Assembly: GCA_003251535.1 (NCBI GenBank)
Contig: QKFD01000049.1
Coordinates: 1-45,346, forward strand
Reading direction: 5' to 3'
Length of the DNA stretch: 45,346 nucleotides
Origin: Chromatiales bacterium
GTDB lineage: Bacteria; Pseudomonadota; Gammaproteobacteria; Thiohalomonadales; Thiohalomonadaceae
Part shown: piece after piece, positions 4,879 to 23,893 of the stretch
Numbering within the stretch: position 1 is the first letter of the stretch
Layout: each line of letters begins with the position of its first letter
Translations under genes and position numbers: made by a program
Notes under the pieces: model-generated
Told to the model about the DNA's origin: nothing
The model's input: only the letters and a program-made list of their open reading frames with translations
Databases searched by the model: none

Positions 4879-5316
4879 GTGACCTCAGCCCACCGCCAGC
4901 CAGCGCCTATCCCACCCGCGGAGCTGGCCCGGTTACGCCGCCTTGCCACCCTCCTGGATGCAGCCATCCAGCTCCCCTTCGGTTATCGCATCGGTCTGGA
5001 TGGCCTCATCGGCCTCATCCCTGGGGTAGGTGACGGTATAGGGATGGCCCTCTCTGGGATCATCATCTTCAAAGCGGCCCGCTGGGGGGTGCCAACCACC
5101 ACCCTCCTGCGCATGGTGGCCAATGTGCTACTGGATGGGGTGGTGGGTACGCTGCCGCTGGCTGGGGATCTGTTTGATTTTGTCTGGAGGGCCAATCTCC
5201 GCAATCTTGCCCTGTTGGAGTCGCACCTCGCCGCTACGGCGGGGACAACCCTCGCCCCCCAGCCGGTGGTGGTCAACGCCCCACCAAGCGGAGAAACACC
5301 TGATAGCTGGCCTTAG
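4879..5316 (+). CDS. DUF4112 membrane-associated protein
   Basis: A 145-residue protein from a GTG start with a weak GAGAG upstream. The core matches DUF4112: [42 protein letters not shown], here spread over residues 18-59, then [27 protein letters not shown] at about 83-109. The two glycine-rich hydrophobic stretches are probably membrane-embedded. No biochemical role is established for the family. It is convergent with the transglutaminase gene, and the last 44 bases of the two coding regions overlap tail to tail. It may share the short intergenic region at 4800-4878 with the divergent arsR-type gene. Confidence 0.85.
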
Positions 5317-7513
5317 CCGCCTCCTGATCCGGTACCAGGGCGCCATAACGCACCTGGACAAATCGCTCGACCAGGGGCACCACCGACTCCCCTAACCGCC
5401 CCCGTAACCGCTCCAGATGCTCTTCTACCGTCTCGCCCACGGGCCGCGGCAGGCCACGCCGACCGTACCAATGCTCCAACTCCAGATAGCTGGCGAGGAC
5501 CAGACGGACCGGATCGCCGATCCGGCGCAGGCGCCAGAGGGCAAGGCGATCGGCGATGGGGTTGCGCAGGGCACGGTAGGCAAAGAGTGCGGCAACCGCC
5601 AGGGCCACCGCGACGGCGATCCACAACCCAAACTCTGTCACCACCCAGTAACCCATCATCAGCAATACCATCACCCCCTGCTTTATCGCTGCCATGGCGC
5701 TGGCCAGCAGGGTGAGGGGATCGAGCGAGCGCGGCTTCTCGGCCGCCTCCCCCTCTACGGCCTGGTTCATCGCCACCAGGTCGTTGACATACTGTTCGAT
5801 CGCCTCGGCGGTGGTCACCGGGACATCGGGATCGGGTAGCTGATAGGCCGCTGTGGGCTCAAATAACACCCAACCGGCCTCAGGGAACCACGCCTCGACC
5901 CAGGCGTGGCCGTCTAAGGTCCACACCTCGTAGTAGCCGGTGAGCGGGTTATAGCGGGTGGCAGAGAAACCGGTGACCAGGCGTGAAGGGATGCCGCGGG
6001 TACGCAGCATCACCGCCATGGCGCTGGCGAAGTATTCGCAGTGCCCGCGATGACTCTCAAACAGGAAGTGGCCTAAGGGGGTCTTACCCTGGGAGTTGAT
6101 GATGGTCTGGAAGGTGTATTGGTAGTGGCTGCGTAGGTGCTGCTCCAGCGCTATGGCGGCCGCTATCCCGCGCTGCTCACCCACCACCTCAGCCGCCAAC
6201 TCACCAACTCGCGGGTCATAGTCGGCCGGCAGTTGCAGGTAGGGTTTTGGCTGCGTCAAGGCAGCGGGATAGGCCGGCCGCCCCGCCACCTGTTGGAAGC
6301 GGGAGTAGGCGGTGTAGCGGGTGTGGGCGCCGATCTGGCGCGGCGCACGCAGGTTGCCATAGGCATCCTCCGCCAGGACATTGCCGGGAAACTCTACCCC
6401 CACTAGCTCGGCCGCCCCCACCAGGCCGTCACTGAGCGGGGCCACCACCTCAATCTGCTGTTCGATCTCCGGCTGTGCCGCCTCCTGTTTGGCGAGCCGC
6501 AACTGACCACGCTGCAACTGCCGCATCCGCTCCCGCTGATCGCTGGCGCTCCAGCGCAGGCCATCGAAGGTGTCGAATACCCGGCCCCGGAGATAGAGCG
6601 GGTGAGGCGCCTGCATATAGAGGACGATGGTGTTGACCAGGCCCGTGCTGGCCCGCGCCTGCTCAATATCTAGCTGCTCATCCAGGCCGTTGTAGGCGGG
6701 TGCTGGCTCGTCTCCCCCCTCCCCGGCCGGCTCGTTGCCAGTACGCCGACTATCCGTGGAGCGGCGGCGACCATCGGCCTCACCCTCGCCCTCCGGCAGC
6801 TCAAGATCTCGCTGCTGGCGCGCCTGCTGCTCCCACTGTTCATCCAGGTAGTCGTGGCCCCCATTGTGGAGATAGGCCCCCCAGTGCATCGCCGGCGGCC
6901 GTGGCATGAGTAGGTAGATCGCAGCGGCGATGGCGATAAACCCCAGCGATAGCGGCACCACACTGACCGGCAGGGTGCCGCGCTGGGCCGTTGAATGGGT
7001 CACCTGGGCGGCCTCGGCGCGGCACTCATCGGCAAAGGCCAGCACCAGGGTGTAGATCCCGGCCAAGACGTATAACAGGGTCTGCACCAGGAACCAGCCA
7101 CTGCGACTCTCGGCGGCGGCAAACAGCAGTACGACGAAGGAGATCCCGATGGCAAAGTGGAGATCGCGCTTGCGCCCCAGGGTGACCGCCTTGGCCGCCT
7201 GGAGCCAGAGCACCAGGGTGATGAGCCCAGGCAGCAGCCCCTGCTGCACCAGCACCATGGCGAAGGCGACCATGCCCACCACGGCCATCCCATCGGAGAG
7301 CGGTTTGGCGAAGGGGAGCGGCCGCTGGGTGTGGTGGCGCCCGACCCAAAGTGCCAAGGCGTAACAGCCCCCCCAAAACAGCACCGACACCAGACCACCG
7401 AATAGCGTATCGGTGGCCCCCCCTTGGGCCCAGGCGGCGCTGGTGATGAGCAGCCAGAGGCTGTAGTAGATGCGCGGATCACCCAGTGGGCGGTCGTGGG
7501 CCAGCTGACTCAT
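5273..7513 (-). CDS. tgpA: TgpA-like membrane transglutaminase (DUF3488 + transglutaminase core + DUF4129)
   Basis: A 746-residue inner-membrane protein. The first ~205 residues form a bundle of membrane segments (DUF3488). A charged periplasmic linker at about 222-275 precedes the transglutaminase-like core. Catalytic residues are Cys492 in [13 protein letters not shown], His536 in [11 protein letters not shown] and an acidic residue at 552 in FEPTAA. The last is Glu where Pseudomonas TgpA uses Asp, a variation known in the superfamily. Another membrane segment near 615-645 and a cytoplasmic DUF4129-like tail follow. It is third in a tightly coupled moxR-DUF58-tgpA operon. Its ATG overlaps the DUF58 stop as ATGA. 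TgpA of P. aeruginosa is essential there; the substrate is unknown. Confidence 0.93.
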
Positions 7514-8739
7514 GAGGCAAACACCGCCGCCAGGTCATCCTCACGCCGCACATGCCAGGTAACACCGTCACTGACGCGCCGCCGCGCCGCGCGCCGCAGC
7601 GGGTAGTGGAAGCTATCGGAGTCGAAGCGCACCCAGAGCGGTTTGGCATGGCGGTGGCGCAGCTCCCAGAGTTCGCCGGGGTGGCCTAGATCCACCGGTG
7701 GGATATCGAATAGCAGTACCGCCCCCCCCTGCGGCAGTAGCGGCAGGGCGCGATGGACCGCCTCGGGATAGGGGGTAGCACCATCGGCGACGACCCGCGC
7801 CAGTAGCTCAAGCAGCGTCTGGTAGTGGTGCGGCCCTCGTGCCACCGGCAACAGTAGTGGTTCGGTGCCGAAACCGGCCAACCCCACCCCATGGCCCTCG
7901 TCAATGGCCCAGCGGGCGCAGGAGGCGGCGATCTTGACCGCATACTCCAGGGTGGAGTGTTTACCCTCCCCCACCTGCACCGCGCTGCGGAGATCCAGCA
8001 CGATGAGCAGATCGGTGGTGTGCAGCAGCTCATACTCCCGCACCACCAACTGGCGGTGGCGGGCAAAGGCGGGCCAGTGGATATGGCGCGGGCTATCGCC
8101 ACGCCGGTATTCGCGCACCCCAAATAGCTCCTCGGCCCCCCCCGCCACCGCCGCCGCCCGTACCCCGGCGGTGGGGGCGTGGCTGGGGCTGAGCAGCGGC
8201 AGATAGCGGATGGGGAAGGGGGTGGGATAGATCACGATCTCCGCCTCGCTCGCCGCCAACTCCCGCTCCACCCGGCGGATCCCGAGGGGATAGGCGGTGC
8301 GCAGTCGGAGCGGGCCCACTCGATGGACCCCGCGCAGGTCGGCCCGCGCCATGAGGGTGAGGGTATCGCTGCCGTGGAGCTGCACGATGAAGGCAAACGG
8401 CGCCTGCGCCTCTGGCTCGGCAAAGGGGAGCCGGTCGGCCAGCTCCAACATATAGCGGCGGCGGCGGGCGGTGAGGGTCAGTTGGAGGGGGATCTGTTCG
8501 CCCTCATGCGCCTTGGCTGGCAGGCTGCGCTGCGCCTCCACCCCGCGGAGATTGAGGCGCGGGGCGAGCCACCCCACGCCCAGGGCCGCGATGAGCAGGG
8601 CAAACATGCCGTAGAGCAGGGCGATCCCCCGATTCCAGGCGATGAATAGCACCACCACCGCCAGACCACCGAGGGCGATCCGCAGTGACAACCGGGCCAG
8701 CAGCTGCTCAAACTGCTGCTCCAGGGTCGAGCCGCTCAC
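7510..8739 (-). CDS. DUF58 protein of the MoxR/transglutaminase operon
   Basis: A 409-residue protein. Two hydrophobic helices near residues 20-58 ([14 protein letters not shown] and [16 protein letters not shown]) anchor it in the membrane. The family signature is [18 protein letters not shown] at about 212-229, followed by LVVREYE and a von Willebrand A-like region ([11 protein letters not shown]). It starts at GTG 8739, overlapping the moxR stop as GTGA, and ends overlapping the next ATG. The three-gene set recurs across bacteria, and the MoxR ATPase is thought to act on the vWA-like DUF58 partner. The exact process is unknown. Confidence 0.92.
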
Positions 8740-9686
8740 GCGGGGGCCTCTTGCGCCTCCACCGGCACGGGGATCCGCTGGAGCAGATCGCGGATGATCG
8801 ACTCTCCGCCGCGGCCGGTCAGCTGCGCCTGGGAGCGCACCACCAGGCGGTGGGCCAGGACCGGCAGCGCCACCTGTTTGACCATCTGCGGGGTCACAAA
8901 GCCCTTCCCCGCCAACAGTGCCACCGCCTGTGCCGCCTTCATCAGGGCGATGGAGCCACGCGGACTCACCCCCACCTCCACCTCGGCGTGCTCACGGGTG
9001 GCCCGCACCAGGGTCGCCATGTAGTGCAGGACACTGGGCTCCACCTTCACCTCAGCCACCCGCTGCTGGAGGGCCACCACCGCCTCACCGGAGATGACTG
9101 CCGCCAGGGAGTCGATGGGGTGGCCGCGGTTCTGCATCTGCATCACCTCCAGCTCCTCCTGCTCGCCGGGATAGCCCATGCTGACGCGCATAAAGAAGCG
9201 GTCCAGCTGCGCCTCTGGTAGGGGGTAGGTGCCGTGAAACTCCACCGGGTTTTGGGTGGCCACCACCATAAACAGCTCGGGCAACGCCCGGGTCTCGCCA
9301 TCCACCGTCACTTGGCGCTCCGCCATCGCCTCCAGAAGTGCCGATTGGGTGCGTGGGGTGGTGCGATTCACCTCGTCCGCCAACAGGATGTTGGTGAACA
9401 CCGGCCCAGGGGCAAACTCAAAGCGACCGCTCTGCTGGTTGTAGAGGGAGACGCCGGTGATATCGGCCGGCAGGAGATCGGGGGTGCACTGCACCCGCTT
9501 GAAACCGCAATCGAGAGAGCGGGCCAGGGCCCGGGCCAGCATGGTCTTGCCCACCCCCGGCACATCTTCGATGAGCAGGTGGCCGCGGCACAGCAGGGTC
9601 GCCAAGGTGAGCAGGATAGGGTCGCGTTTGCCGATGATGACGCGCGCGATATTGCGGTAGAGGTTGTTCAGATCCTGGGTCGACAT
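8736..9686 (-). CDS. MoxR-family AAA+ ATPase
   Basis: A 316-residue ATPase that opens the operon with DUF58 and TgpA. Walker A is GVGKT at residues 44-48. Walker B lies in ILLADEVNRTTPRTQSALLEAM. Sensor 1 is VVATQNPVEFHGTYPLPEAQLDRF, here split by its residues, and SPRGS gives the sensor 2 region. MoxR proteins act as chaperone-like remodelling ATPases for vWA-domain partners, which fits DUF58 next door. The Shine-Dalgarno sequence before the ATG at 9686 is poor. No clear promoter was identified in the 91 bases between it and the upstream Lrp-like gene. Confidence 0.94.
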   Translation of the reverse strand: MSTQDLNNLYRNIARVIIGKRDPILLTLATLLCRGHLLIEDVPGVGKTMLARALARSLDCGFKRVQCTPDLLPADITGVSLYNQQSGRFEFAPGPVFTNILLADEVNRTTPRTQSALLEAMAERQVTVDGETRALPELFMVVATQNPVEFHGTYPLPEAQLDRFFMRVSMGYPGEQEELEVMQMQNRGHPIDSLAAVISGEAVVALQQRVAEVKVEPSVLHYMATLVRATREHAEVEVGVSPRGSIALMKAAQAVALLAGKGFVTPQMVKQVALPVLAHRLVVRSQAQLTGRGGESIIRDLLQRIPVPVEAQEAPA

Positions 9687-10183: not shown

Positions 10184-10639
10184 CTAACGCGGTAGCGGCA
10201 GGCGCAGGGCCCCAAGGCGGGTGGCCTGCCAGCCTAGATGGCGGTAGAAATCGAGGGCGGGGGTGTTATCTAGGTCCGCCAGCAGCTGGAGCCGGGTCGC
10301 CCCCTGGCCGGCCGCCCAGTGCGCCAACCCCTGGAGCAGGGCGCGGCCGATGCCGCCCCCCCGCACCGTCTGGCTGACCACCACATCCTCCACCAGCCCC
10401 GCTGGCCCCCCTTCGGCGGTGGAGATGAGGAGCTGCACCGTCGCCATCCCCACCACCTGGCCGGCCTGCTCCGCCACCAACACCAGGGCATCGGCAGGCC
10501 GCCCTAGCAGTAGTTCCAAGCCGCGCTGCTGACGCTGTGGGTCGGCCACAAAATCGCTTTCGATGGCGAATAGCTCCGTCAGTAGCCCGCAGAGGGCGGG
10601 GAGATCGGCGGTACTGGCGGGGCGGAGGATGAGATCCAT
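10184..10639 (-). CDS. GNAT-family N-acetyltransferase
   Basis: This 151-residue protein has the single GNAT fold. The N-terminal strand is LILRPASTADLPALCGLL. The acetyl-CoA pyrophosphate loop is VRGGGIGRALLQGL around residues 93-106, preceded by AGLVEDVVVSQT. The end, ALDFYRHLGWQ, is the usual C-terminal beta-strand and helix. It follows the last nif-linked gene by 44 bases on the same strand and may be read from the same transcript, though nothing ties it to nitrogen fixation. The acceptor is unknown. Confidence 0.9.
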   Translation of the reverse strand: MDLILRPASTADLPALCGLLTELFAIESDFVADPQRQQRGLELLLGRPADALVLVAEQAGQVVGMATVQLLISTAEGGPAGLVEDVVVSQTVRGGGIGRALLQGLAHWAAGQGATRLQLLADLDNTPALDFYRHLGWQATRLGALRLPLPR

Positions 10640-10691: not shown

Positions 10692-11159
10692 CTACCCCCC
10701 CATCACATGGCAGTAGACGCGCCGCAACAGCTCCAACTGTGGCGCTGGCAGGTCTCGGGACTGGGTGAGATCGACAAACCGCCCGGAGACCGCCTCGGCC
10801 TGCTCGAAGGGGGGATCGATGGAGGTAAAACGGGCCAAAAAGATCCACAGCGGTCCCTCCGGCACATCCACCAGCTCGGCAAACTCCCCCTCCACCTCCA
10901 GCGACCCGCTGGGCAGGGAGAGGAGCCGCTCGGCCCAGGTGACCATTGCCGCCGGATGGGGGCGCACCTCTTTACGCTGGGCGAGCGCCTTGCGCTCAAC
11001 CACGCTGGAGAGCTGCGGCAGGCCGCCAAAGGCGCACACCCCAACGCTTGGCAGGCGCAGAAAACGGGTACGGGCGGAGGTCGCTTGCTTGTGGTACATC
11101 ACCAGGCGCACCTGGCCAAAGAGTGGATCACTGCTGGGTTGTTCAATGGAGTCGATCAT
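10692..11159 (-). CDS. Unknown protein at the end of the nif operon
   Basis: A 155-residue soluble protein that I do not recognise. It has no signal peptide or membrane helix and only two cysteines (VCAFGG and RVYCHVMGG). The middle contains RTRFLRLPSVGVCAFGGLP, then a likely alpha/beta segment (ELVDVPEGPLWIFLARFTSIDPP) and a C-terminal helix (APQLELLRRVYCHV). Its ATG overlaps the stop of the DUF364 gene as ATGA, so the two are translationally coupled and probably act together. Position at the 3' end of a nifENX operon suggests a role tied to nitrogenase cofactor or metal supply. That is context, not homology. Confidence 0.8.
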   Translation of the reverse strand: MIDSIEQPSSDPLFGQVRLVMYHKQATSARTRFLRLPSVGVCAFGGLPQLSSVVERKALAQRKEVRPHPAAMVTWAERLLSLPSGSLEVEGEFAELVDVPEGPLWIFLARFTSIDPPFEQAEAVSGRFVDLTQSRDLPAPQLELLRRVYCHVMGG

Positions 11160-11923
11160 GCCACTACTCGTTGTGGTCCCAAGGCCCGTCCAAGGGGGAC
11201 GATGCGATAGTGAAATGCCCTCTCGATGGCGGTCAGATCGCCCCCCTCGGCAATCAAGGAGCGAAGGGTTGCCGGGTCATCCGCCTCCATTCCCACCAGC
11301 CAGTCGATCCCGAACTGTTGCAGCTCATCCAGCCACGGCACGGCGGGCCCACAGAGCACGACGGTGGCACCAGCCGCCAGTTCGAGCAGCCGTGGCAGGG
11401 TCTTATCAATCAGCGTGTGGTCGGCGATAAAGAGCCACTCCGCCTCCTCCAGCTGCGCCTCGGCGGCGGGATCCACGCCACCGGCACAGGGGAAGCGGCA
11501 CAGCTCCACGCGACCGATCAGGCTCTCAGCACCGGCGATACGGCCGCACACCGCCACCCGGCGACCACGCAGGCGGGGCAGAAACCAATCGAATATCCCA
11601 CTGCGGGCGGCGCCCCCGCGCAACAGCGCCCCCCCCTCATAGACCATATCGGCCTCACTATTGAGGGCGGCGTTGACCGCGGCCAGCCCTAAGGCCGCCC
11701 GCTGCGGATCAAACTCCCGTAGCCAACCGGCCAGTTCGGCCAGGGGACGGCCACTCAATGGGGAGCGCCAATCCACCGTCCCCCGCAGCAGCGGATTGGG
11801 GGAGATACCGGCGGAGCTGCCGCAGCAGAGGCTGTAGTGGAGCCCCACCACCACCTCTGTCGCCGGCAGGTTGACTGCCGCTCCATCAAGCAGCAGATCG
11901 TAAATCTCGCGCGGGCGGGCCAC
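11156..11923 (-). CDS. DUF4213/DUF364 protein (putative heavy-metal-chelation family) in the nif operon
   Basis: A 255-residue protein. The N-terminal ~90 residues are the enolase-N-like DUF4213 domain (VVVGLHYSLCCGSSAGISPN). Residues from about 110 form the Rossmann-like DUF364 domain: RGRRVAVCGRIAG, then EAEWLFIADHTLIDKTLPRL, then GATVVLCGPAVPWLDEL. DUF364 proteins have been proposed to chelate metals or metal-containing cofactors; no reaction is established. Several cysteines (CCGSS, VCGR, ELCRFPCAGG) could bind metal. It begins at GTG 11923, seven bases after the ferredoxin stop, with a weak ribosome site, and overlaps the unknown gene downstream. Confidence 0.85.
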   Translation of the reverse strand: MARPREIYDLLLDGAAVNLPATEVVVGLHYSLCCGSSAGISPNPLLRGTVDWRSPLSGRPLAELAGWLREFDPQRAALGLAAVNAALNSEADMVYEGGALLRGGAARSGIFDWFLPRLRGRRVAVCGRIAGAESLIGRVELCRFPCAGGVDPAAEAQLEEAEWLFIADHTLIDKTLPRLLELAAGATVVLCGPAVPWLDELQQFGIDWLVGMEADDPATLRSLIAEGGDLTAIERAFHYRIVPLGRALGPQRVVA

Positions 11924-11930
11924 CTTAGGC

Positions 11931-12257
11931 CTAGCCCCAGACGTCAGCCGGGGCCTTGAGCCGTTCCACCGGCGTATCGCCTAGCAGATGCTCTTCGATG
12001 ATGGCGGCCACATCCTCCTTCGATACCCCGGAGTACATCACCCCCTCGGGGTAGACCAGGACATTGGGACCGACCCCACACGGACCGATACAGCCGGTGG
12101 AGGTCACAGCAAACCGCCCAAACAGATTGCGCTCCTGCATCTGATACCAGAACTCCTCAGCAACCGGCGTACACCCCTTCTCGGAGCAGGAGCCACGCGG
12201 GTGGCCCATGGGCCGCATCTGGGTACAGATAAAAACGTGTTTTTCGGGCTTGGGCAT
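11931..12257 (-). CDS. Thioredoxin-fold [2Fe-2S] ferredoxin, nif-linked
   Basis: A 108-residue protein of the thioredoxin-like ferredoxin family (Clostridium/Aquifex [2Fe-2S] type). Cluster cysteines are Cys11 in HVFICTQ, Cys24 or Cys29 in GSCSEKGC, then Cys56 and Cys60 in STGCIGPCGVGP. The C-terminal part (VLVYPEGVMYSGVSKEDVAAIIEEHL) completes the fold. Such ferredoxins are common in nif regions of diazotrophic proteobacteria and are thought to donate electrons to nitrogenase or to cofactor assembly. The Shine-Dalgarno sequence is weak (GAGTAAGA). Confidence 0.9.
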   Translation of the reverse strand: MPKPEKHVFICTQMRPMGHPRGSCSEKGCTPVAEEFWYQMQERNLFGRFAVTSTGCIGPCGVGPNVLVYPEGVMYSGVSKEDVAAIIEEHLLGDTPVERLKAPADVWG

Positions 12258-12345
12258 GGGTCTTACTCGAAAAAATCAACACAGATAAGATCTGCGGCGG
12301 GGCCCAGGGCCGACTCTCAACCCGCCCCCACCGCAGGGTCAGAAC

Positions 12346-12630
12346 TCACTCAGCTGCCGCCGGCTCGTGGACGTGGCAGTTCTTGGGACAGACGCGGGCG
12401 CAGGAGCCACAGCCGATGCAGTCCAGGGCGTCGGCGATGGTCATGACCATAGAGGTATCGTCGTCACCATCCTCATCGTCTTCGATCTCCCGCTCCACCA
12501 GGTCGAACACCTTGCGTGGGCAGACCTTAAAGCAGCGTCCGCAGCCGATGCAGTTCTCTTCCTTGAGTTCGATGATGAAGGCGGGGGTCCACTCGCTGCC
12601 ACCGCGGGTAATGCCGGTGATATATGACAT
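12346..12630 (-). CDS. fdxB: Nif-specific 2[4Fe-4S] ferredoxin III (FdxB)
   Basis: A 94-residue ferredoxin with two full cluster motifs. CIGCGRCFKVCP lies at about residues 27-38 and CIGCGSCARVCP at about 72-83. Between them is a very acidic insertion (EREIEDDEDGDDDTS) typical of the nif-specific ferredoxin III family, as is the start MSYITG. It would carry low-potential electrons for nitrogenase or for NifEN/NifB cofactor maturation. It lies between the small CCE_0567-like gene and the [2Fe-2S] ferredoxin in the same orientation. Confidence 0.94.
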   Translation of the reverse strand: MSYITGITRGGSEWTPAFIIELKEENCIGCGRCFKVCPRKVFDLVEREIEDDEDGDDDTSMVMTIADALDCIGCGSCARVCPKNCHVHEPAAAE

Positions 12631-12688: not shown

Positions 12689-12895
12689 TTAGCCGCTGGC
12701 CGCCCTGAAGGCCTTCTCGGCATCGGCCCAGGCCTTACAGGCGTCATAGGTGGATTGGGCGATCCCCGGCAGCTCTTCGTAGCCAGCCGGCAGTTTGTCC
12801 TCCACCAGGTCGTGCAACTGAGAGGCCCACTCGCTGGCGATTCGCTTCAGCTTGCGCACCTCTTTCTCCATACTCTTCAGCTGGTCATCCGTCAT
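12689..12895 (-). CDS. CCE_0567/Rop-like small helical protein
   Basis: A 68-residue, highly charged protein predicted as two antiparallel helices: DQLKSMEKEVRKLKRIASEW, then a turn around DLVEDKLPAGYEELPGI, then AWADAEKAFRAASG. This matches the Rop-like family found in diazotrophs, whose cyanobacterial member CCE_0567 has been described as a metal-binding helical protein. Two ATGs are adjacent (12898 and 12895). The second gives better spacing from GAGGTG and was chosen. Its role in nitrogen fixation is unproven. Confidence 0.85.
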   Translation of the reverse strand: MTDDQLKSMEKEVRKLKRIASEWASQLHDLVEDKLPAGYEELPGIAQSTYDACKAWADAEKAFRAASG

Positions 12896-12956
12896 CATTC
12901 ACCTCATTGCCACTGATGTGGGTAGGCCGCTTGGGGCCTACCCAGCAGTGCGCGGA

Positions 12957-13424
12957 TTACAGCCCCGCCACCTTGGAGTGTTCGCCGATCAGCTCCACCG
13001 CCACGGAGAGCAGCTTGTCCGCTTCGTCCTTCATCTTCGACAGGCTGGCGAAGCCGAAACGGTGGACGTCACGCAGGGTCTTATCCATCACCACCAGCTT
13101 GCCGACGGTGATCAGGGCGCGGCCAAAGCCTTCATGGGAGAGCTTGAGCAGGGGCACCGCCATCTGGCCGCACTCTTTTTCGATGAGCATGGAGATGGCG
13201 TTGTAGAACGCCTGCATCCGCGCCAGGGTCTCCTCATCGGGATCGCCGACCACCGGGATCTCCTTCTTCCGCTCCGGGGTGAGGATGAAGGGGTCGAGCA
13301 GCTTGGCGTTGCTATAGCCTTCCCACGTCCCGTAACCATCCAGGGCGCGCATCTGCTTCGCCATCTCCTTGATGAAATCGGACTCCATAATCGGGTCGTT
13401 TTCGTCGATTACTACGGCATTCAT
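12957..13424 (-). CDS. NifX-associated nitrogen fixation protein (DUF269)
   Basis: This 155-residue protein matches the DUF269 family, nearly always encoded just after nifX. Key text includes FIKEMAKQMRALDGYGTWEGYS, here with the start MNAVVIDENDP. Also present are KLLDPFILTPERKKEIPVVGDPD in pieces and the C-terminal LRDVHRFGFASLSKMKDEAD. The family is mostly helical and its function is unknown. A longer frame exists to 13451, but GGGAG eight bases before the ATG at 13424 decides the start. It follows nifX after a 131-base spacer containing inverted repeats. Confidence 0.93.
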   Translation of the reverse strand: MNAVVIDENDPIMESDFIKEMAKQMRALDGYGTWEGYSNAKLLDPFILTPERKKEIPVVGDPDEETLARMQAFYNAISMLIEKECGQMAVPLLKLSHEGFGRALITVGKLVVMDKTLRDVHRFGFASLSKMKDEADKLLSVAVELIGEHSKVAGL

Positions 13425-13555
13425 GTGCGGTTCTCCCAAACGTTGAAACAAACAGGTTCCTCGTAGAAATCCGTCCGTGCGAAGCGCAACCGCCCCTCAG
13501 CGCACGACCCCTCTCCGCTATCCGGCAGCGCACCAGCGCCGGCCGGTGAGGCGCT

Positions 13556-14050
13556 TTACTCCTCCCAGCCCTCGTTCTCCATGGCATCAAAACGGTCATC
13601 CTCGCGGGGGGCATTGCGCGCAAAGGCGCGCGCCAGCCAACCACTGGGGCCGTTCTTTAACTCCTGTTGGAGCCCATCCAGTAACCCCTGGATGGTGGTC
13701 CCCTCCTCCACCTTAAGGGGCTGCACATTCATGCCCATAAGTTGGCGCACGGCGGAGGCACCCACCGCCTGGCAGTAGACCGCCACGCAGCCATCTAGCA
13801 GGGCAAACTTCTCCAGCAGCTTCCCCTCATGGCCGTCCTGCCGCAGGCTGCCAAACTCCGCCACCTCCAGCAGCAGCGCACCACCGGAAGAGACTTGATA
13901 GATGGCGAAGCGCTCGGAGGAGCCAAAGTGTTGGTCCACCTGTTTTAGATCGGAGGTGGCGAAGGCGACCTTCACCCCCGGCTCCGGGCGCACACCGAGA
14001 TTCACCAGATTGCTTCCATCAACCACACGCAGTTGCCGCTCTAAGGCCAT
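13556..14050 (-). CDS. nifX: NifX, FeMo-cofactor precursor carrier
   Basis: A 164-residue protein. The N-terminal half is the cofactor-binding NifX/NifB-C-like fold: VKVAFATSDLKQVDQHFGSS with the conserved DxHFG, then FAIYQV, LLEKFALLDGCVAVYCQAVG and SAVRQLMGMNVQPLKVEEGT. NifX carries NifB-co and the VK-cluster between NifB, NifEN and nitrogenase. A longer frame extends to 14209 inside nifN, but GGAGAT seven bases before ATG 14050 marks the true start, leaving a 32-base overlap with nifN. A hairpin (AGCGCC, 9-base loop, GGCGCT) lies immediately after the stop at 13535-13555. Confidence 0.94.
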   Translation of the reverse strand: MALERQLRVVDGSNLVNLGVRPEPGVKVAFATSDLKQVDQHFGSSERFAIYQVSSGGALLLEVAEFGSLRQDGHEGKLLEKFALLDGCVAVYCQAVGASAVRQLMGMNVQPLKVEEGTTIQGLLDGLQQELKNGPSGWLARAFARNAPREDDRFDAMENEGWEE

Positions 14051-15434
14051 GATCGGGATCTCCGTTACGGTATTCGAGCTTCTGACCGTAGATGGATCGG
14101 TAGGGCTCGATCTCATGGGTGTTGTGGGTAAGCCGCAGGTTGGCCAACTCGAACAGCAGCGCACGACTGCCGCGATAGCCGATGGTGACCCGCTGGTAAC
14201 CCCCCACAATATCGTACAGCGGGAATCCTACCCGCAGCAGCGGGATCCCCAGCCGTTCCGCCCCCTGAGCACAGTGGGAGTTCCCGATCATAAGCTCGGC
14301 CCGCTCGGCCTGTGCCCACTGCTCTAGATCCTCAAGATCCCCCAGTTTCACCTCGGCGAAGGGGAGCTTGGCCAGGGCCGGCCCACTGGCCGGGGCGACC
14401 GCGGTCACCACCTCCGCGCCAATGCTATGCAGTAGCTCGGTGAAGGCCAGCAGGTGATCCGGCTCCGCTGCCAGCGCCACCCGCGCCTGCCCAATCATGA
14501 AGTGGCAATCCACCATGGCATCTTGGAGCTGGGCCCGCTGCCGCTCCAAGGCGGGCGGTACCGGCCGCTCCGCCAACAGCGAGAGGCGGTGCACAAAGGC
14601 GTCCATCGCCTCCAGGCCATAGAGGTGATCAAAGTGGTAGTCAGGCACCCCGGTACGCTGCTTGAGGGCCTCTGCCGCCGGCTGTAGCGCCGCACCGATC
14701 ACCAGCGTGGCGCAGGAATCGCCCATCAGCTGGATGTCGGAGATGGGGGTCCCACCCACGGTGTGGGGGACAAAATCTTGGTCCACCAGGTGACCATCCA
14801 GGGAGTCGGAGGTGTCGGGCAGGATCACCGGCCGCAGCTCAAAGGCCTCGATCAGCTCCTTCAGCACCTCCACATCCCCCGGGCTCATGCTCGGGCTGGG
14901 CAGCACATTGACCTGGCGCCGCCGGGTGTTGGGGCGGCTACCCGCCTCCTCTGCGGTGGGGACCAGGGTCTCCACCATGGCGAGCACCGCGGCGGCAAAC
15001 CCGCTCTCCAAGGAGCCGCTGAAATCGGGGGTGTTGACCGGCACCACGTAGCGATCGGCGTACTGGGGATGCTGCTGGCGGAACTCCCGCACGGCCATCT
15101 GGACATCGGTGCCCTGGCACTCGGAGAGGCCGGTGGTCATCAGGCCGATCACCTGCGGCTTGTTCTTGCTGAAGATGGTGTCCAGCGCCTCGACGATGGA
15201 GGCGTCGGCCCCCATCACCGCACTCACCTGGTCCATCGCCGTGGTCTGGAGCGGGATCGGCTCCCGGAAGTGGCGGACAAACTGGGTCTTGGCAAAGGCG
15301 GTACACCCTTGGGAGCCGTGCATCAGCGGCATCGCCCGCGCCAGCCCCAGGAAGGCGAGGGTCGCCCCTACGGGCTGGCTATTCTTCAGCGGATTGACTG
15401 CCAGCGGTTTATTGCGACGAATCACCTTGGCCAT
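14019..15434 (-). CDS. nifN: NifN, beta subunit of the nitrogenase cofactor scaffold NifEN
   Basis: A 471-residue member of the nitrogenase component 1 family. Starting at ATG 15434, the HGSQGCTAFAKTQFVRHF motif puts its cysteine at residue 44, the same number as the [4Fe-4S] ligand of A. vinelandii NifN. Other family text is GLMTTGLSECQGTDV, VPVNTPDFSGSLESGF and MIGNSHCAQGAERLGIPLLR. With NifE it forms the alpha2-beta2 scaffold that finishes FeMo-cofactor before transfer to NifDK. Its start overlaps the nifE stop by one base (TGATG), and AGGAGG sits seven bases upstream. A GTG three bases earlier is a less likely start. Confidence 0.96.
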   Translation of the reverse strand: MAKVIRRNKPLAVNPLKNSQPVGATLAFLGLARAMPLMHGSQGCTAFAKTQFVRHFREPIPLQTTAMDQVSAVMGADASIVEALDTIFSKNKPQVIGLMTTGLSECQGTDVQMAVREFRQQHPQYADRYVVPVNTPDFSGSLESGFAAAVLAMVETLVPTAEEAGSRPNTRRRQVNVLPSPSMSPGDVEVLKELIEAFELRPVILPDTSDSLDGHLVDQDFVPHTVGGTPISDIQLMGDSCATLVIGAALQPAAEALKQRTGVPDYHFDHLYGLEAMDAFVHRLSLLAERPVPPALERQRAQLQDAMVDCHFMIGQARVALAAEPDHLLAFTELLHSIGAEVVTAVAPASGPALAKLPFAEVKLGDLEDLEQWAQAERAELMIGNSHCAQGAERLGIPLLRVGFPLYDIVGGYQRVTIGYRGSRALLFELANLRLTHNTHEIEPYRSIYGQKLEYRNGDPDHGLRAATACG

Positions 15435-16825
15435 CACACACCCTCCTGCGGCTGCGTCCAGGGGGCGGGCTTACGCACCGCCGGCCAGATCGGATTCTCA
15501 ATGGTGAGGGCCAGCTGACGCGCCAGCTCCACCATCCCCTCGTAACCGGCGTAACCGAACTCCCGCTCCTGGTTGATATCGAGGAAGGGGATCCGGGCCT
15601 TGAGGGCGGTATACATGTTGCGGCCACCGGCGATGAGGAGATCGGCCTGGTAGTCACGGATGGTGTCGAGCAGCGCCCGCGGCCCCCCTTCGGAGAGCAT
15701 CTTGGTATCCTCGCCCATCAGCTCACGGATCCGGGCCTTGTCCTCTTCAGTGGACTTGCTGGTACCGGTAGCCACCACCGTGAGGCCGAGGTCCTGAAGG
15801 GCGGAGACCACCGACCAGCTCTTTACGCCACCGGTAAATAGCAGGGCCCGCTTACCATTCAGCCGCTCCCGCCACGGTTGCAGCATCTGATCCACCCGTG
15901 CCTCTTCGCGGGCGATGAGTGCCTCGGTGCGCTGGGTGAGATCGGGGTCATCGATGATGCGGGCGAAGTCGCGCAGTGCCTTAGAGACGTCTCGCACGCC
16001 ATAGAAGCTCCCCTCAAACCAGGGGGTACCCCAACGCTCCTCCAGCTTGCGGGCGACGTTTACCATCGCCTTGGAGCAGACCATCATGTTCACTTCCGAG
16101 CGGTGCATGGTCTGCACCTCGCGGTAGCGGGCGTCACCGGAGAGGGTGCAGAGCACGCGGATCCCCAGCTCATCCAGCAGCGGCAGCACATGCCACAGCT
16201 CGCCGGCGATGTTGTACTCGCCAATGAGGTTGATATCGTGAACCGTGACCCCCTCCCGGGCCGCCTCCGGCGGGACCGGATCGGGCTCGCGGGTGCCGAT
16301 GACATGCTTCACCATCGACTCGCCGGCGATACGGTTACCGAGATTCTTGGTGCCATAGAACCCGGCCCCATCCACCGGCACCACATGCACCCCCCACTTC
16401 TCGGTGGCCGACTTGCAGACCGCCTCGATATCGTCGCCGGTAAGGGCTGGGACGCAGGTGTTGTAGACAAAGACCGCCGCTGGCGAGTAGTTGTCGATGG
16501 CCTGTTTGATGGAGTGGAACAGCCGCTTCTCGCCACGCCCCATGACCACATCCTGCTCTGTGAGATCGGTGGTCATACCGATGCGCCAGAGGGCGGGGCC
16601 GGTGGAGCGGGTGCCACGGTTATCCCAGGAGCTGCCGGCGCAGGCGATGGGGCCGTGGACGATATGGGCGACATCGGCAATGGGGAGCAGGGCGATCTGA
16701 GCGCCGTCGAAGGCACACCCGCCGGCGGTAGCGCCCGGCTTGGGTCGGGCGCACCCCGATTTGGATTTGTTGTTGTGGGCGCAGGCCGGTTCGTTGAGGA
16801 GTTCCGCAATATCTTTGCGCTGCAT
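15434..16825 (-). CDS. nifE: NifE, alpha subunit of the nitrogenase cofactor scaffold NifEN
   Basis: A 463-residue nitrogenase component 1 homologue. With the start at ATG 16825 its cysteines fall at 37 (AGGCAFDGA), 62 ([14 protein letters not shown]), 124 ([13 protein letters not shown]) and 250 (NMMVCSK). These are exactly the numbers of the cluster and cofactor-precursor cysteines of A. vinelandii NifE. The frame is open to 16870, but that codon lies upstream of the predicted transcription start (near 16855), so only 16825 is possible from this promoter. AAGGTGG precedes it. This is the first gene of the operon. Confidence 0.97.
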
Positions 16826-16865
16826 GACGACCCACCTTTCGCTGATTGGGACTTGGTGATCCTTC

Positions 16866-16881
16866 AGCAACCAGCGTGCCA
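16866..16881 (-). promoter_or_regulatory. Sigma-54 (RpoN) promoter of the nifENX operon
   Basis: On the minus strand TGGCAC, five bases, TTGCT gives a perfect -24/-12 element (GG and GC at the required spacing). Initiation is expected near 16855, 30 bases before the nifE ATG. It establishes that the operon needs sigma-54 and an activator ATPase, expected to be NifA. Confidence 0.93.
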
Positions 16882-16886
16882 GTGCG

Positions 16887-16899
16887 CAACTATTTGGTT
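16887..16899 (-). promoter_or_regulatory. IHF-like site between UAS and promoter
   Basis: Minus strand AACCAAATAGTTG matches the IHF consensus WATCAANNNNTTR at all but one defined position. It lies between the NifA site and the -24 element, where IHF bends DNA in classical nif promoters. Confidence 0.55.
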
Positions 16900-16925
16900 A
16901 TTCGTTGTTTTTCAGGAAAACCCGC

Positions 16926-16941
16926 TGTCGGTTTTGCTACA
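16926..16941. promoter_or_regulatory. NifA upstream activator sequence
   Basis: TGT, ten bases, ACA is an exact match to the palindromic NifA UAS. It is centred about 78 bases upstream of the predicted nifE transcription start, within the working range for NifA. Confidence 0.85.
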
Positions 16942-16995
16942 AAGGGGGGAGACGGGAGGGGATGCTACATGGGACGGGAGGCACCGCAGGGGGGA

Positions 16996-17016
16996 CCGGG
17001 GTGCGCCGCACCCCGG
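16996..17016. terminator. GC-rich hairpin between lpxA and the nif promoter
   Basis: CCGGGGTG pairs perfectly with its complement around a five-base loop, 15 bases after the lpxA stop codon. There is no T run, so it is not a canonical intrinsic terminator. It may still insulate nifE from lpxA transcription or protect the mRNA end. Confidence 0.45.
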
Positions 17017-17030
17017 GTGACCGGGCGCTA

Positions 17031-17807
17031 TCAGCGCAGCACGCTGCGTTGGGTCCGTTCGAGGAAGGCGGCGAAGTGACCCACCTCTGGGGAGGCGCTG
17101 GCGAGCGCCTGGAGCTGCTCCTTGGCCTCCTCCAGGGAGAGGTTGGAGCGGTAAAGCAGCTTATAGGCCTGGCGCAGATTGCGCACCGCCTCGGCGGAGA
17201 AGCCGCGGCGTTTCAGCCCCTCGGTGTTGATGCCGTGGGGGTGGGCGGGATTACCGGAGACCATCAAGAAGGGGGGGACATCCTTGGAGATGGCGCTCCC
17301 CATGCCGGTGAAGCTATGGGCCCCAATGGAGCAGAACTGATGCACCAAGGTGAAGCCACTCAGGATCACCCAATCCTCCACCCGCACATGCCCCGCCAGG
17401 GAGGCGTTGTTGGAGAAGATGGTGTGGTTACCGACATGGCAGTCATGGGCGATGTGGATATAGGCCATCAGCCAGTTGTCGTTGCCCACCTGGGTCAGCC
17501 CACCGCCCCCCACCGTCCCACGATTGATGGTGACCGATTCGCGGATCACATTGCGATCCCCGATCTCCAGACGGGTCGGTTCATCGCGGTATTTCTTATC
17601 CTGGGGCGCATCGCCCAGCGAGCTGAACTGGTAGATCCGGTTCTCGCTACCGATGCGGGTGGGACCATTGATGACCACGTGGGGTCCAATCCAGGTATCG
17701 TCGCCGATCTCGACATCGGCCCCGATCACCGAATAGGCCCCAATGGTGACACCGCTACCGATGCGGGCGCTGGGGTCAACGATGGCCGTGGGGTGGATGC
17801 CGCTCAT
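17031..17807 (-). CDS. lpxA: LpxA, UDP-GlcNAc O-acyltransferase
   Basis: A 258-residue protein that catalyses the first step of lipid A synthesis in the cytoplasm, using acyl-ACP. It is a left-handed beta-helix of hexapeptide repeats ([20 protein letters not shown] and onward). The catalytic His region is [19 protein letters not shown], followed by the helical C-terminus ([18 protein letters not shown]). The start was set at ATG 17807, which overlaps the fabZ stop as ATGA; a longer frame to 17828 has no support. lpxB, usually next, is absent here; the nif operon occupies that side. Confidence 0.96.
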
Positions 17808-18250
17808 GCGATCTCCTGCTCTGCGCACATCAGCTCGGCCTCGGCCACCAGCTTACCCGCCACCTTGGCCTCCGCCTTGAACTTCCAGATCCCCCGCTTC
17901 TGCTTCAATACCTCCACCTCCAGCGAGAGCTGGTCGCCGGGCACCACCGGGGCACGGAAACGGGCATTCTCGATCCCGGCGAAGTAGAAGAGCCGGTTCT
18001 GGCTCGGCCGCGAGTCGGTGCTCTTGAACGCCAGGATCCCCCCCGCCTGGGCCAGCGCCTCCATGATAAGCACCCCGGGAAAGATGGGGTGGTGAGGGAA
18101 GTGGCCAGGGAAGAACGGTTCGTTCACCGAGACGTTCTTAATAGCAACGATGGATTTACCCGGTTCGATGGCGATCACCCGGTCGACTAACAGAAACGGA
18201 TAGCGGTGCGGCAGATACTCCAGCACCTGATAGATATCCATCGTGTTCAA
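17804..18250 (-). CDS. fabZ: FabZ, beta-hydroxyacyl-ACP dehydratase
   Basis: A 148-residue hot-dog-fold dehydratase of type II fatty acid synthesis. It carries the conserved [13 protein letters not shown] and the active-site stretch [16 protein letters not shown] with the catalytic His, followed by the MEALAQAGG helix with the catalytic Glu. A TTG at 18250 overlaps the lpxD stop and has AAGGGG six bases upstream. An ATG at 18241 ([10 protein letters not shown]) is the alternative but has poorer spacing. It sits between lpxD and lpxA as in most gammaproteobacteria, linking fatty acid and lipid A flux. Confidence 0.96.
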
Positions 18251-19281
18251 TGGTTGCCCCTTTTCAATTCGGCTAGTTCTTTTTCCAGGGCCTTGAGGCG
18301 ACGCGACATCTCATCCAGCTGCTTGGCCCGCGCATAGTTGCGGTGCCAGCTTGCCGTCTCCTCCAGTGGTGTGCCGGAGGAGTAGACGCCCGCCGCCTTG
18401 ATCCCTTTTAGGACAATGGAACCGGCGGTGATGGTGGTCCCCGCCGGGATCTCGATATGGCCGACGATACCAACGCCCCCGGCGATGAGGCAGTTGCGGC
18501 CAATGGTGGTGCTACCGGCAATACCGACACAGCCCGCGATGGCGGTGTTGGCGCCGATACGCACGTTGTGGGCGATCATAATGAGGTTATCGAGCTTGGC
18601 ACCCGCCTCAATCACCGTATCCTCAATGGCGCCGCGGTCAACGGTGGTGCAGGCGCCGATCTCCACATCGTCACCGATCACCACCCGCCCCACCTGCGGC
18701 ACCCGCACCCACGCCTCGCCATCGCGGGCGAAGCCGAAGCCATCCCCCCCCAGCACCGCACCGGGCTGGATCAGGACGCGCCGGCCGATCTCCACGTCAT
18801 GGAGCACCGTGACGTTGGCCAACAGGCGGCTGCCATCGCCAATCTGGCTCCCGGCGCCCACGACGCAACCCGGCCCGATAAACACCCCCTCCCCTAGCAC
18901 CACCTCCGGCCCCACCACCGCATGGGCGGCGATGCAGGCGCTGGCGGGTACCTGAGTTGACTCATGGACCACCGCTTGGGGATGGACCCCCGGCGTGTGG
19001 GGGGTAGTGCGGGCGTAGAGCGCGGCGATACGGGCAAAGGCGATGTGCGGTTGATCGCTCAACAGGGCATTGCCGCTAAACCCCTCGGCATCCGCCGGCG
19101 TCATGATGACCGCCGCGGCTTGGGTCTGCCCCAGATATTTGCGGAGTTGCGGATTGGCGAGGAAGGTGATCTGGCGGGTATCGGCCGCCGCTAAGGTGCC
19201 GACCCCCTCAATGGTGCGATCCGGATCGCCACTCACCGCGGCCTCCGCCACCTCCGCCAGCTGGCCCAGAGTGAAGCGCAC
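18247..19281 (-). CDS. lpxD: LpxD, UDP-3-O-acylglucosamine N-acyltransferase
   Basis: A 344-residue enzyme that adds the N-linked hydroxyacyl chain in lipid A synthesis. It has an N-terminal uridine-binding domain ([20 protein letters not shown]). A hexapeptide beta-helix follows, with the catalytic His in [20 protein letters not shown], and a C-terminal helix ([20 protein letters not shown]). It begins at GTG 19281, 12 bases after the skp stop, with a weak ribosome site, suggesting coupling to skp translation. Confidence 0.96.
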
Positions 19282-19293
19282 GGCGCGGCAGCC

Positions 19294-19815
19294 CTACTTC
19301 TTACCCTGATCCATCTTCTGGCGTAGCCGCTTCAGCACTACCTCGGTGACATCTACCCGATCGCTGGCATAGACCACACCGTTCTCGAAGATGAGGTCAT
19401 ACCCCTTCTCCTTCGCCAGGTCCACAATCACCTCGCTCACCTCCCGTTGGAGGCGGGCAAACTCCTCATTGCGACGCAGGTTGAGGTCCTCAGTGAAGGC
19501 CTCTTGGGCGCGCTTTGCCTCGCGCTGCTGGACGACAATCTCCCGCTCGGCCTTGCGGCGGGCATCGGCGCTCATGAGATCGCCCTCCCGCGAGAGCTTA
19601 TCCTCCTGCGCCTTCACCTGCTTCTGCATGGCCGCCAGCTCTTTATCCCGGGGCGCGAACTCCTTCTCCAACCGCTCCCGCGCCGCTTGGGCTTGGGGCG
19701 CCTGCTCCAGGATGCGTGGCGTGTTGACGAAGGCAACCTCTACCTCTGCCGCGCTGGAGAAGGGCGTGGCGAGCAGGGCCGATAGCAATAGACCAGTCGT
19801 GATCAGGTGTCTCAA
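19294..19815 (-). CDS. skp: Skp/OmpH periplasmic chaperone
   Basis: A 173-residue protein from a TTG start at 19815, with GGAGGT seven bases upstream. The signal peptide is LRHLITTGLLLSALLATPFSSA, given here as two segments around cleavage before AEVEVAFVN. The body is a long coiled coil (residues about 45-135, rich in K, E, R and Q) with the family's ends: VAFVNTPRILEQAP and DLIFENGVVYASDRVDVT. Skp holds unfolded outer-membrane proteins for BamA, encoded immediately upstream. A longer frame to 20043 has low coding character before the TTG and was rejected. Confidence 0.95.
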   Translation of the reverse strand: MRHLITTGLLLSALLATPFSSAAEVEVAFVNTPRILEQAPQAQAARERLEKEFAPRDKELAAMQKQVKAQEDKLSREGDLMSADARRKAEREIVVQQREAKRAQEAFTEDLNLRRNEEFARLQREVSEVIVDLAKEKGYDLIFENGVVYASDRVDVTEVVLKRLRQKMDQGKK

Positions 19816-20221
19816 GGCAGGACCTCCGAAAGAAGCCGCGTATTGTACCCACATTGCGCGCGTTGCCGAAGCCCCGCGGAGTGTAGTTGTATCCCCCAGA
19901 ATGGACCTTTCAGCGCCCGCTGCGGCGCACACGCTGCGGGTAACGGCAGCCCCCCGTGGGGCAAAGGGCATACCGCCGTAGAGGGGCCAACCGGCACCGC
20001 GCCCCTGGGGGGGAGGCCATCCCGGTGTTGCAATCCTTAACAAGGCCCCCGCACTCCACCCTACCCCAGCCGCCCAAATCCATCAGGGGTGGGGCCGCCC
20101 GCAGGGGGGAGGCGGGCCGCGCCTCCCCGCTACGGGGTCGGGGCAGGCCCAGCGCAGACCATCACAGCACAACCAGCCTGCCCCAGGGGCCTCAGCGGCC
20201 CCGCCCGCCGATCTACAGATG
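19816..20221 (-). other. Intergenic region between bamA and skp (406 bases)
   Basis: No convincing gene is seen; the short frames on both strands look random. It holds the skp Shine-Dalgarno sequence and a GC-rich hairpin at 20186-20202 (GGGGCC, five-base loop, GGCCCC) 20 bases after the bamA stop. The length is unusual for the tightly packed bamA-skp junction, so skp may have its own promoter here. No strong sigma-70 or sigma-E match was identified. Confidence 0.5.
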
Positions 20222-22522: not shown

Positions 22523-22534
22523 TGTCTTTCCTCC

Positions 22535-23893
22535 CTACCCGAACAGGCGGGTCAAATCGTTATAGAGGGCGATGGTCATGAGGGCGAGGATAAAGGCCAG
22601 GCCGATCTTCTGCCCGAGCGCTTCGACCCGCTCAGAGAGCGGGCTCCCCTTGATAGATTCGGCAACATAGAACATCAAATGGCCGCCATCGAGCACCGGC
22701 ACCGGCAGTAGATTGAGCACCGCCAGACTGACGCTCAACAGGCCCAAAAAGCTCAGGAAGCGGGAGATCCCCATGCTGGCGGACTCTTTGGCGTAGATAG
22801 CAATGGTGACCGGGCCGCTGATGTTCTTCATCGATAGCTGCCCGGTCACCATCGCCTGGAGAGACCAGAGGGTGAGCTTGGCCATATCCCAGGTCTTATC
22901 GGCGGCGGCGGCCACCGCGGCCAGCGGGGAGTAGCGCAGCTCGGTCAGGAGGCTCTGATCCACCTGGGCGGAGGCCCCGATCCGACCAAAGGTCTGATCA
23001 TCCTGCTTGATCGCCTCGGGACTAATCTCCAAGGTGAGAGGCGCCCCGCCCCGCTCAACGGAAAAACGCAGCGGCTGTCCCGGGTGTTTGAGGACGATCT
23101 GATGTAGGTCTTCCCAGGTCTTAATGGGCTGGTTATCGATGGCCAGGATGCGGTCACCGGCCTGTAGCCCCGCCTGCTGCGCCGGAGACTCCGGCATCAC
23201 CTCTGCCACCACGGGATCAGCGGCCGGCGAGCGGGGCCGCAGCCCAAAAGAGGTGACAATGGTCTCGGGCTCGGGTTCGCCCACAATGGTTGAGAAATCC
23301 AAGGTGGCCCGACGCTCCTCCCCCTCCGGGGTGAGTAGTGCCACCTCCACCGCCTCCTTGCGGAGCGCATAGGGCAGGATCCGGTCTAAAACCACCTCCC
23401 AGGTGGGGGTCTCCACACCGGCTACCGCCGTCACCTGCTCCCCCGAACGGATCCCCGCCTCGGCCCCTACTGACTGCGGGATCACCTCGCCCACCACCGG
23501 CACCAACCCCGGTACACCGTTGATGAAGACCAACCAGTAGGCAAAGATGGCGAAGATGAGGTTAAAACCGGGACCGGCGGCCACAATGGCAAAGCGCTTG
23601 GCGACCGGCTGGCGGTTGAAGGCGCGGTGCAGCTCTTCGGCTGCCACCTCCCCCTCCCGCTCGTCGAGCATCTTGACGTAGCCCCCCAGCGGGATGGCCG
23701 AGAGGGAGTATTCGGTCCCATCGACCCGGCCACGGTAGCTCCAGAGCTGCTTGCCAAAGCCGATGGAGAAACGCAATACCTTCACCCCTGCCTTTCGCGC
23801 CACCCAGAAGTGGCCATACTCATGCACGGCGATGAGGATGCTGAGGGCAACGAGGAAGCTGACGACGGTAAATAGAGTATCGCTCACGCTCAT
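22535..23893 (-). CDS. rseP: RseP, site-2 membrane metalloprotease
   Basis: A 452-residue inner-membrane zinc protease. The catalytic HEYGH is at residues 24-28 in the first membrane segment. Two PDZ domains follow (about 125-290, including [20 protein letters not shown]). The third zinc ligand is the Asp in [13 protein letters not shown]. RseP makes the second cut of anti-sigma-E RseA during envelope stress and clears signal peptides. ATG 23893 overlaps the dxr stop (ATGA). A TTG at 23911 is in frame but not supported. Confidence 0.96.

Follow-up and report, generated by a model that had tools for sequence, protein, structure and literature searches.

Why does a nitrogenase operon carry, behind its cofactor-assembly genes, a DUF4213/DUF364 gene that runs into the gene of a 155-residue protein? 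The pair lies in the window (the whole stretch of 45,346 nucleotides that was analysed), and the original prediction regarded it as a possible undescribed accessory module for the delivery or storage of Mo, Fe or cofactor precursors, placed without a break at the tail of a nifENX operon. The coordinates of the open reading frames confirmed the four-base overlap of the two genes, and Pfam and NCBIfam matches confirmed the gene order upstream of them on the same strand, nifE-nifN-nifX-DUF269-Rop-like-fdxB-[2Fe-2S] ferredoxin (Table 1). The Rop-like gene is one which we take to be of the DUF683/CCE_0567 type. The [2Fe-2S] ferredoxin scores 129 bits against NF041613, below the cut-off of 195, and matches PDB entry 5abr ('ferredoxin, 2Fe-2S'), presumably A. 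vinelandii FeSI, at an E-value of 4.6e-34.

Table 1. Genes and promoter elements of the window discussed in the text (window positions).
Feature	Coordinates	Strand	Basis
GNAT acetyltransferase, recurrent NafT neighbour	10184..10639	-	Pfam and neighbourhood survey
NafT (nitrogenase-associated factor T) homologue, 155 aa	10692..11159	-	ORF, PDB profile match, AlphaFold fold
Four-base overlap, DUF364 stop and NafT start	11156..11159	-	ORF coordinates
DUF4213/DUF364 protein, 255 aa, diverged member of nif-specific clade by sequence	11156..11923	-	Pfam, tree
Thioredoxin-like [2Fe-2S] ferredoxin, Shethna protein I (FeSI) type	11931..12257	-	NF041613, 5abr match
fdxB, ferredoxin III, nif-specific	12346..12630	-	TIGR02936
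Rop-like protein	12689..12898	-	PF05082
DUF269, NifX-associated protein	12957..13451	-	TIGR02935, Pfam
nifX, start uncertain, ORF overlaps nifN end	13556..14209	-	PF02579 and gene order
nifN	14019..15437	-	PF00148 and position after nifE
nifE, probable ATG at 16825	15434..16825	-	Profile match over cut-off
Sigma-54 -24/-12 element, exact match, upstream of nifE	16866..16881	-	Motif scan
NifA-type upstream sequence TGT-N10-ACA	16926..16941	-	Motif scan

The absence of a break mostly holds: at the junction of the ferredoxin and DUF364 genes 7 bases separate stop from start, but 88 bases lie between fdxB and the ferredoxin gene, with one weak terminator-like hairpin (12280-12296); the hairpin count (2) is not above that of shuffled sequences (mean 1.4). 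Placing the pair at the tail of the operon is likewise open to doubt, as NafT is perhaps not the last gene: the GNAT gene follows 52 bases downstream of it and, as described below, recurs near NafT in other loci. Downstream of the GNAT gene, a run of genes for a MoxR ATPase, a DUF58 protein and a TgpA transglutaminase (5273-9686, minus strand) shows no link with nitrogen fixation. At the other end, the nifE operon begins directly after an lpxA-like gene (window 16825-25077), with which a dxr-rseP-bamA-ompH-lpxD-fabZ-lpxA run, identified by Pfam matches, comes to its end; no lpxA homologue was found in the 33 loci scanned.

The window was also scanned with the sigma-54 -24/-12 consensus and with the NifA-type upstream activator motif TGT-N10-ACA. 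Matches to the former with at most two mismatches number 20, no excess over the chance mean of 22.9, and the element upstream of nifE is the only one among them with zero mismatches. TGT-N10-ACA occurs twice, again no excess over chance (mean 4.5), one copy lying 44 bases upstream of the -24 element before nifE. No sigma-54 match with two or fewer mismatches was obtained between 7845 and 16865 in the same scan, and the DUF364 and NafT genes are therefore most simply read as transcribed from the nifE promoter. This reading is qualified by the weak hairpin that follows fdxB and by the FeSI operon drawn as separate in A. vinelandii.

As for the 155-residue protein itself, Pfam provided no match for it or its six scanned relatives (7 family members in all), and the search of NCBIfam with the same set returned only two single-member matches at an E-value of 0.085, which were taken as chance. 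Scanning genome contigs with the single sequence resulted in 88 pattern matches and no relative, while an alignment-based scan recovered 20 NafT loci; relatives were found in 6 of 20 genomes of its own taxonomic family, its own genome included, and on a Methylococcus plasmid. When a profile of 19 family sequences was searched against the PDB, two chains were detected, both of them 'nitrogenase-associated factor T' (8eno/9cjf), at an E-value of 3e-23. The match to A. vinelandii NafT (E 3.3e-23) extends over profile positions 4-138 of 139, and the next PDB match in this search has an E-value of 0.53. The AlphaFold model (pLDDT 88.5, pTM 0.84) retrieved 8eno_E as its top Foldseek match (E 8.6e-10) and superposed on the NafT of 8eno with a Z-score of 18.1 and an rmsd of 1.8 Å over 124 of 124 chain residues. 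Most of the structural matches that follow are Nudix proteins at Z-scores of 8 to 11, values to be read with the caveat of the comparison tool itself that a Z-score of 7 to 8 is common.

By fold, the protein is Nudix-like. The Nudix box, GX5EX7REUXEEXGU, is present in none of 34 NafT sequences, nor is RExxEE; hence no Nudix hydrolase activity is expected and the protein is not classed as a Nudix hydrolase. The term 'nudix' does not appear in the main text of the NafT structure papers PMC9968304 and PMC11612016. A thioredoxin/ArsC-like origin, which an N-terminal motif had suggested, was abandoned once NafT and Nudix proteins came out of the fold search. Judged by sequence profile and modelled fold, the 155-residue protein is a NafT homologue with a Nudix-like fold devoid of the catalytic box. 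'Unrecognised', as it had been called, is accordingly true with respect to Pfam and NCBIfam only, and 'undescribed' does not apply to a gene already known from A. vinelandii.

The distribution of NafT was followed in genome samples in which nifE over cut-off defines a nif+ genome. Among 369 gammaproteobacterial genomes, NafT occurs in 13 of the 29 that are nifE+ and in none of the 340 others (Fisher p 2e-16), a few of which hold pieces of nifE or nifD below cut-off (e.g. G195, G239, G285, G359). A phylum sample of 398 genomes showed it in 4 of 41 nifE+ genomes and 0 of 357 others. A further weak match (G157; E 6.7e-4), interrupted by three stops and from a genome lacking nifE, was not counted as NafT. 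Turning to the 16 further genomes or records behind the NafT loci, nifE is over cut-off in 14. The genome of L032 shows a nifD-like match only, yet the L032 locus itself carries nifN and nifX. Two loci hold partial NafT genes; the genome of one (L038) has nifE over cut-off, and no nifE was detected in that of the other (L039). NafT is thus practically confined to diazotrophs, though not found in most of them: it was not detected in 16 of the 29 nifE+ gammaproteobacterial genomes or in 37 of the 41 nifE+ genomes of the phylum sample, which makes it dispensable for nitrogen fixation. The refuting outcome named beforehand, homologues lying mostly outside diazotrophs, was in this way looked for and did not occur; within the gammaproteobacterial sample there were none in genomes lacking nifE over cut-off. 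What emerges is a nif-restricted family with representatives in named lineages of gamma- and betaproteobacteria and in genomes from another class; the members scanned have no Pfam or NCBIfam match.

A link with the iron-only nitrogenase was looked for as well, and anfD over cut-off was found in none of the 29 nif+ genomes. The genome from which the window comes (G000) has, at C3:9014-10372 and C85:204601-206010, another nifE-like gene that exceeds the cut-off (661 bits) and an anfD-like gene at 696 bits, below the cut-off of 874. The second nifE-like and the anfD-like genes suggest, by their sequences, an alternative nitrogenase in this genome, in which only one NafT was found.

Gene neighbourhoods were compared over 33 NafT loci, the window included, by counting neighbours on the same strand within 6 kb, after dropping loci that are copies of counted ones (L072, L082, L003-L020, L112-L115). 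DUF269 and fdxB each lie near NafT in 24 of these loci, and nifX and a FeSI-type ferredoxin each in 22; in 7 loci none of the genes from nifEN to the ferredoxin is found within this distance. The DUF364 gene directly precedes NafT in 8 of the 33 (the window, L002, L030, L036, L040, L079, L138 and L139). Close relatives of the window locus (L021, L022, L071) show the order ferredoxin, NafT, GNAT, where NafT comes directly after the ferredoxin with DUF364 absent between them. The DUF364-NafT pair is not an obligate module. GNAT genes occur near NafT in 7 of the 33 loci, five on the same strand (the window, L021, L022, L071, L137) and two on the opposite one (L138, L139), making GNAT a third recurrent partner of NafT, in genomes of another class too. 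At L002 (1784-2143), on plasmid NZ_CP070492.1 of Methylococcus sp. EFPC2, which carries nifE, the run reads rnf, bfr, a hypothetical gene, DUF364, NafT and iscX.

What NafT may do is best approached through its A. vinelandii counterpart (AvNafT, Avin_01560). The literature found on NafT with nitrogenase comprises cryoEM studies of A. vinelandii and a review, and the available sections of PMC8907163, PMC12811062 and PMC10521693 contain no mention of it. In PMC9968304, AvNafT is described in complex with the MoFe protein of a delta-nifV strain, at a site overlapping the docking site of the Fe protein; Ser14 and Arg16 make contacts, residues 117-131 form a docking helix, and His9, His11 and His95 cluster next to two histidines of the MoFe protein. 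Recombinant NafT also binds MoFe protein inactivated by alkaline turnover, and its binding may keep damaged MoFe protein from turnover (PMC11612016, in part); PMC10745740, in the portion available, proposes that NafT recognises cofactor-compromised states. In the corresponding parts of PMC9968304 and PMC11612016, the function of NafT is regarded as unknown even in A. vinelandii.

Conservation across 33 NafT homologues (AvNafT numbering; the partial genes L038 and L039 were left out of the alignment as well as of the 33 loci) separates these features. Ser14, Arg124 of the docking helix and Asp or Glu at 96 are found in all 33, Pro98 in 32, His9 in 30 and Arg16 in 23; His11 is present in 4 and His95 in none, so that the histidine cluster cannot define the family. 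The window protein keeps the equivalents of Ser14 and Arg16 (Ser28 and Arg30 in its own numbering) and of Arg124, and its C-terminal amphipathic helix (139-152) carries the invariant arginine, whereas of the three histidines only that at position 9 is kept. Conserved docking residues against lost histidines favour, at the level of sequence, a docking function conserved in the family and speak against the histidine cluster as a general working part. Among genomes other than that of the window, those with NafT (10 of 12 readable, the NifD frames of G103 and G280 having been misread) and those without it (9 of 9) have similar NifD contact motifs; co-variation of NafT Arg16 with NifD Asp200 showed no signal in the readable genomes and gives no support to the docking reading. 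Telling a conserved docking surface from a histidine cluster specific to A. vinelandii renders the proposals on mechanism testable.

From these observations, we consider it probable that NafT docks on cofactor-compromised MoFe protein and that the nif-specific DUF364 protein beside it is not required for NafT; a role of NafT in MoFe quality control is likely. NafT would be made together with the genes of FeMo-cofactor assembly and would dock on NifDK with a cofactor site that is empty, has no homocitrate or has suffered turnover damage. By covering the Fe-protein site it would mark or shield the MoFe protein and keep it from turning over until cofactor insertion or repair has taken place, the path from docking to either outcome being putative. 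We infer here the same MoFe binding as in A. vinelandii, its protective or repairing outcome, and any part that DUF364 might play. A tie between NafT and lack of homocitrate synthase was considered and rejected, as every one of the 29 nif+ genomes has nifV over cut-off; the relevant state would rather be one in which homocitrate has been lost or comes late than one in which it cannot be made. Against this reading stand the function called unknown in the A. vinelandii studies, the nif+ genomes in which NafT is missing, the NifD motifs without co-variation, the unconserved histidines and L039.

An alternative is that NafT acts as a maturation chaperone, holding apo-MoFe protein open for insertion of FeMo-cofactor, and not in repair after damage. 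The possibility is raised in the available text of PMC9968304, the docking surface of NafT adjoins the cofactor site, and, leaving the window aside, the cofactor-assembly genes DUF269 and nifX lie within 6 kb of NafT in 23 and 21 of 32 loci. Binding to a turnover-inactivated enzyme that still contains its cofactor (PMC11612016, in part) does not fit well with such a role, nor do the many nif+ genomes with no detectable NafT, and we consider it rather unlikely. Docking on compromised MoFe protein remains the preferred reading.

The assignment of the neighbouring protein to DUF4213/DUF364 was upheld, with 65.5 bits against PF04016 (cut-off 23) and 50.1 against PF13938 (cut-off 23.5). PF04016 is found in 27 of the 369 gammaproteobacterial genomes, 11 of them among the 29 nifE+ and 16 among the 340 others. 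In a tree of 32 DUF364 proteins, the 15 nif-linked ones, all from nifE-bearing genomes or records, form one group with a support of 100/100 on a branch of 2.43, and the other 17 comprise 16 from nif-minus genomes and a copy from G103 that lies away from the nif locus of its genome. G282 was not part of the tree; in its correct frame it scores with the non-nif clade (355 vs 19 bits). The nif clade is thus represented in 10 of 29 nifE+ genomes and, as far as placement was possible, in none of the 340 others, one weak partial match (G374) being unplaced. Distribution therefore agrees with the earlier expectation that both genes are accessories of nitrogenase. This nif-specific subfamily probably has a part in the metal or cofactor chemistry of these cells, and for that of nitrogenase it is a concrete candidate. 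In the literature available, no paper was found on DUF364 and nitrogen fixation, nor on the nif clade within DUF364 studies.

Whether the two proteins cooperate in delivery, with DUF364 making or holding a metal chelate that passes through NafT to the MoFe protein, can be examined against the same data. DUF364 was proposed to be an enzyme of chelator synthesis from its context near genes for Fe, W, V and Mo transporters (PMC2954201, in the sections available); the nif-specific clade itself, DUF364 adjacency in 8 loci, including those of G437 and G441 from another class, and the retention of His9 in most homologues also accord with delivery. Nevertheless, 25 of the 33 NafT loci have no adjacent DUF364, the association in nif+ genomes is weak (nif-clade DUF364 in 7 of 13 with NafT vs 3 of 16 without it, p 0.056), the other two histidines proposed to bind metal, His11 and His95, are mostly lost, and the window DUF364 protein has itself lost 20 of 48 residues invariant in its clade. 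Such a module appears improbable. Delivery or storage of Mo, Fe or precursors, the role predicted earlier, stays hypothetical, and the literature points instead to recognition of cofactor-compromised MoFe protein by NafT.

By sequence, the DUF364 gene of the window is a diverged member of the nif-specific clade. Its branch (1.7) is the longest there, which makes its place inside the clade unsure, and of the 48 positions at which the other 14 members never vary it retains 28, the next lowest being G301 with 48 of 56. The protein had been described as cysteine-rich; six cysteines are indeed present, but the description is overstated, as Cys33 is the only one whose position is conserved in 13 or more of the remaining 14 members. 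This copy may be decaying or changing function. It could even be a passenger of the nif operon, kept only by its coupling to nafT, a reading compatible with the one preferred for NafT, which we entertain tentatively and at somewhat less than even chance. Apart from the divergence, the equivalents of Glu148 and Thr174 of the D. hafniense protein Dhaf4260, which 13 or more of the other 14 members retain, have been deleted or replaced, and DUF364 was not matched anywhere in G014, a genome from the same family; on the other hand, the 255 codons form an uninterrupted frame, the two Pfam domains clear their cut-offs by a wide margin, and the equivalents of Asn83, Gly129, Asp180 and Thr182 remain.

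A broader arrangement can be imagined in which FeSI, the nif-type DUF364 protein, NafT and the GNAT protein would constitute one nitrogenase quality-control module. NafT would recognise MoFe protein lacking homocitrate or cofactor and block the Fe-protein site, DUF364 would supply or process a small ligand to re-seat the cofactor, and FeSI would give electrons. We regard this as highly doubtful. The present analysis usefully extends NafT to a family, recognises its Nudix fold, shows that the histidine cluster does not hold up across that family and delimits a nif-specific clade of DUF364.

In comparison with known systems, the window protein resembles AvNafT in its full-length sequence match, fold, docking residues with the C-terminal helix, and location in a nif cluster downstream of nifENX and FeSI. 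It differs in carrying Gln for His11 and Ile for His95, in an N-terminus about 14 residues longer and in the DUF364 gene that precedes it with a four-base overlap. With Nudix proteins such as the Ap4A hydrolase 4ijx, NrtR and the C-terminal domain of MutY it shares the overall fold, but not the Nudix box. The DUF364 protein has the two-domain DUF4213/DUF364 organisation of Dhaf4260 (Desulfitobacterium hafniense, 3l5o; E 3.4e-19). In one pairwise alignment, read by eye, four named interdomain residues of the Dhaf4260 pocket are kept and four changed: Gly39 and Arg42 are replaced throughout the nif clade, Glu148 and Thr174 in the window only. A long branch sets the clade apart from non-nif DUF364 proteins in the tree, which did not include Dhaf4260 itself. 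Finally, the A. vinelandii FeSI operon, in the portion of PMC8561814 available, has a like [2Fe-2S] ferredoxin (Avin_01520) just after a 4Fe-4S ferredoxin and nifENX, although its legend draws that operon apart from nifENX; NafT there comes four locus numbers after FeSI, whereas in the window FeSI, DUF364 and NafT follow one another directly.
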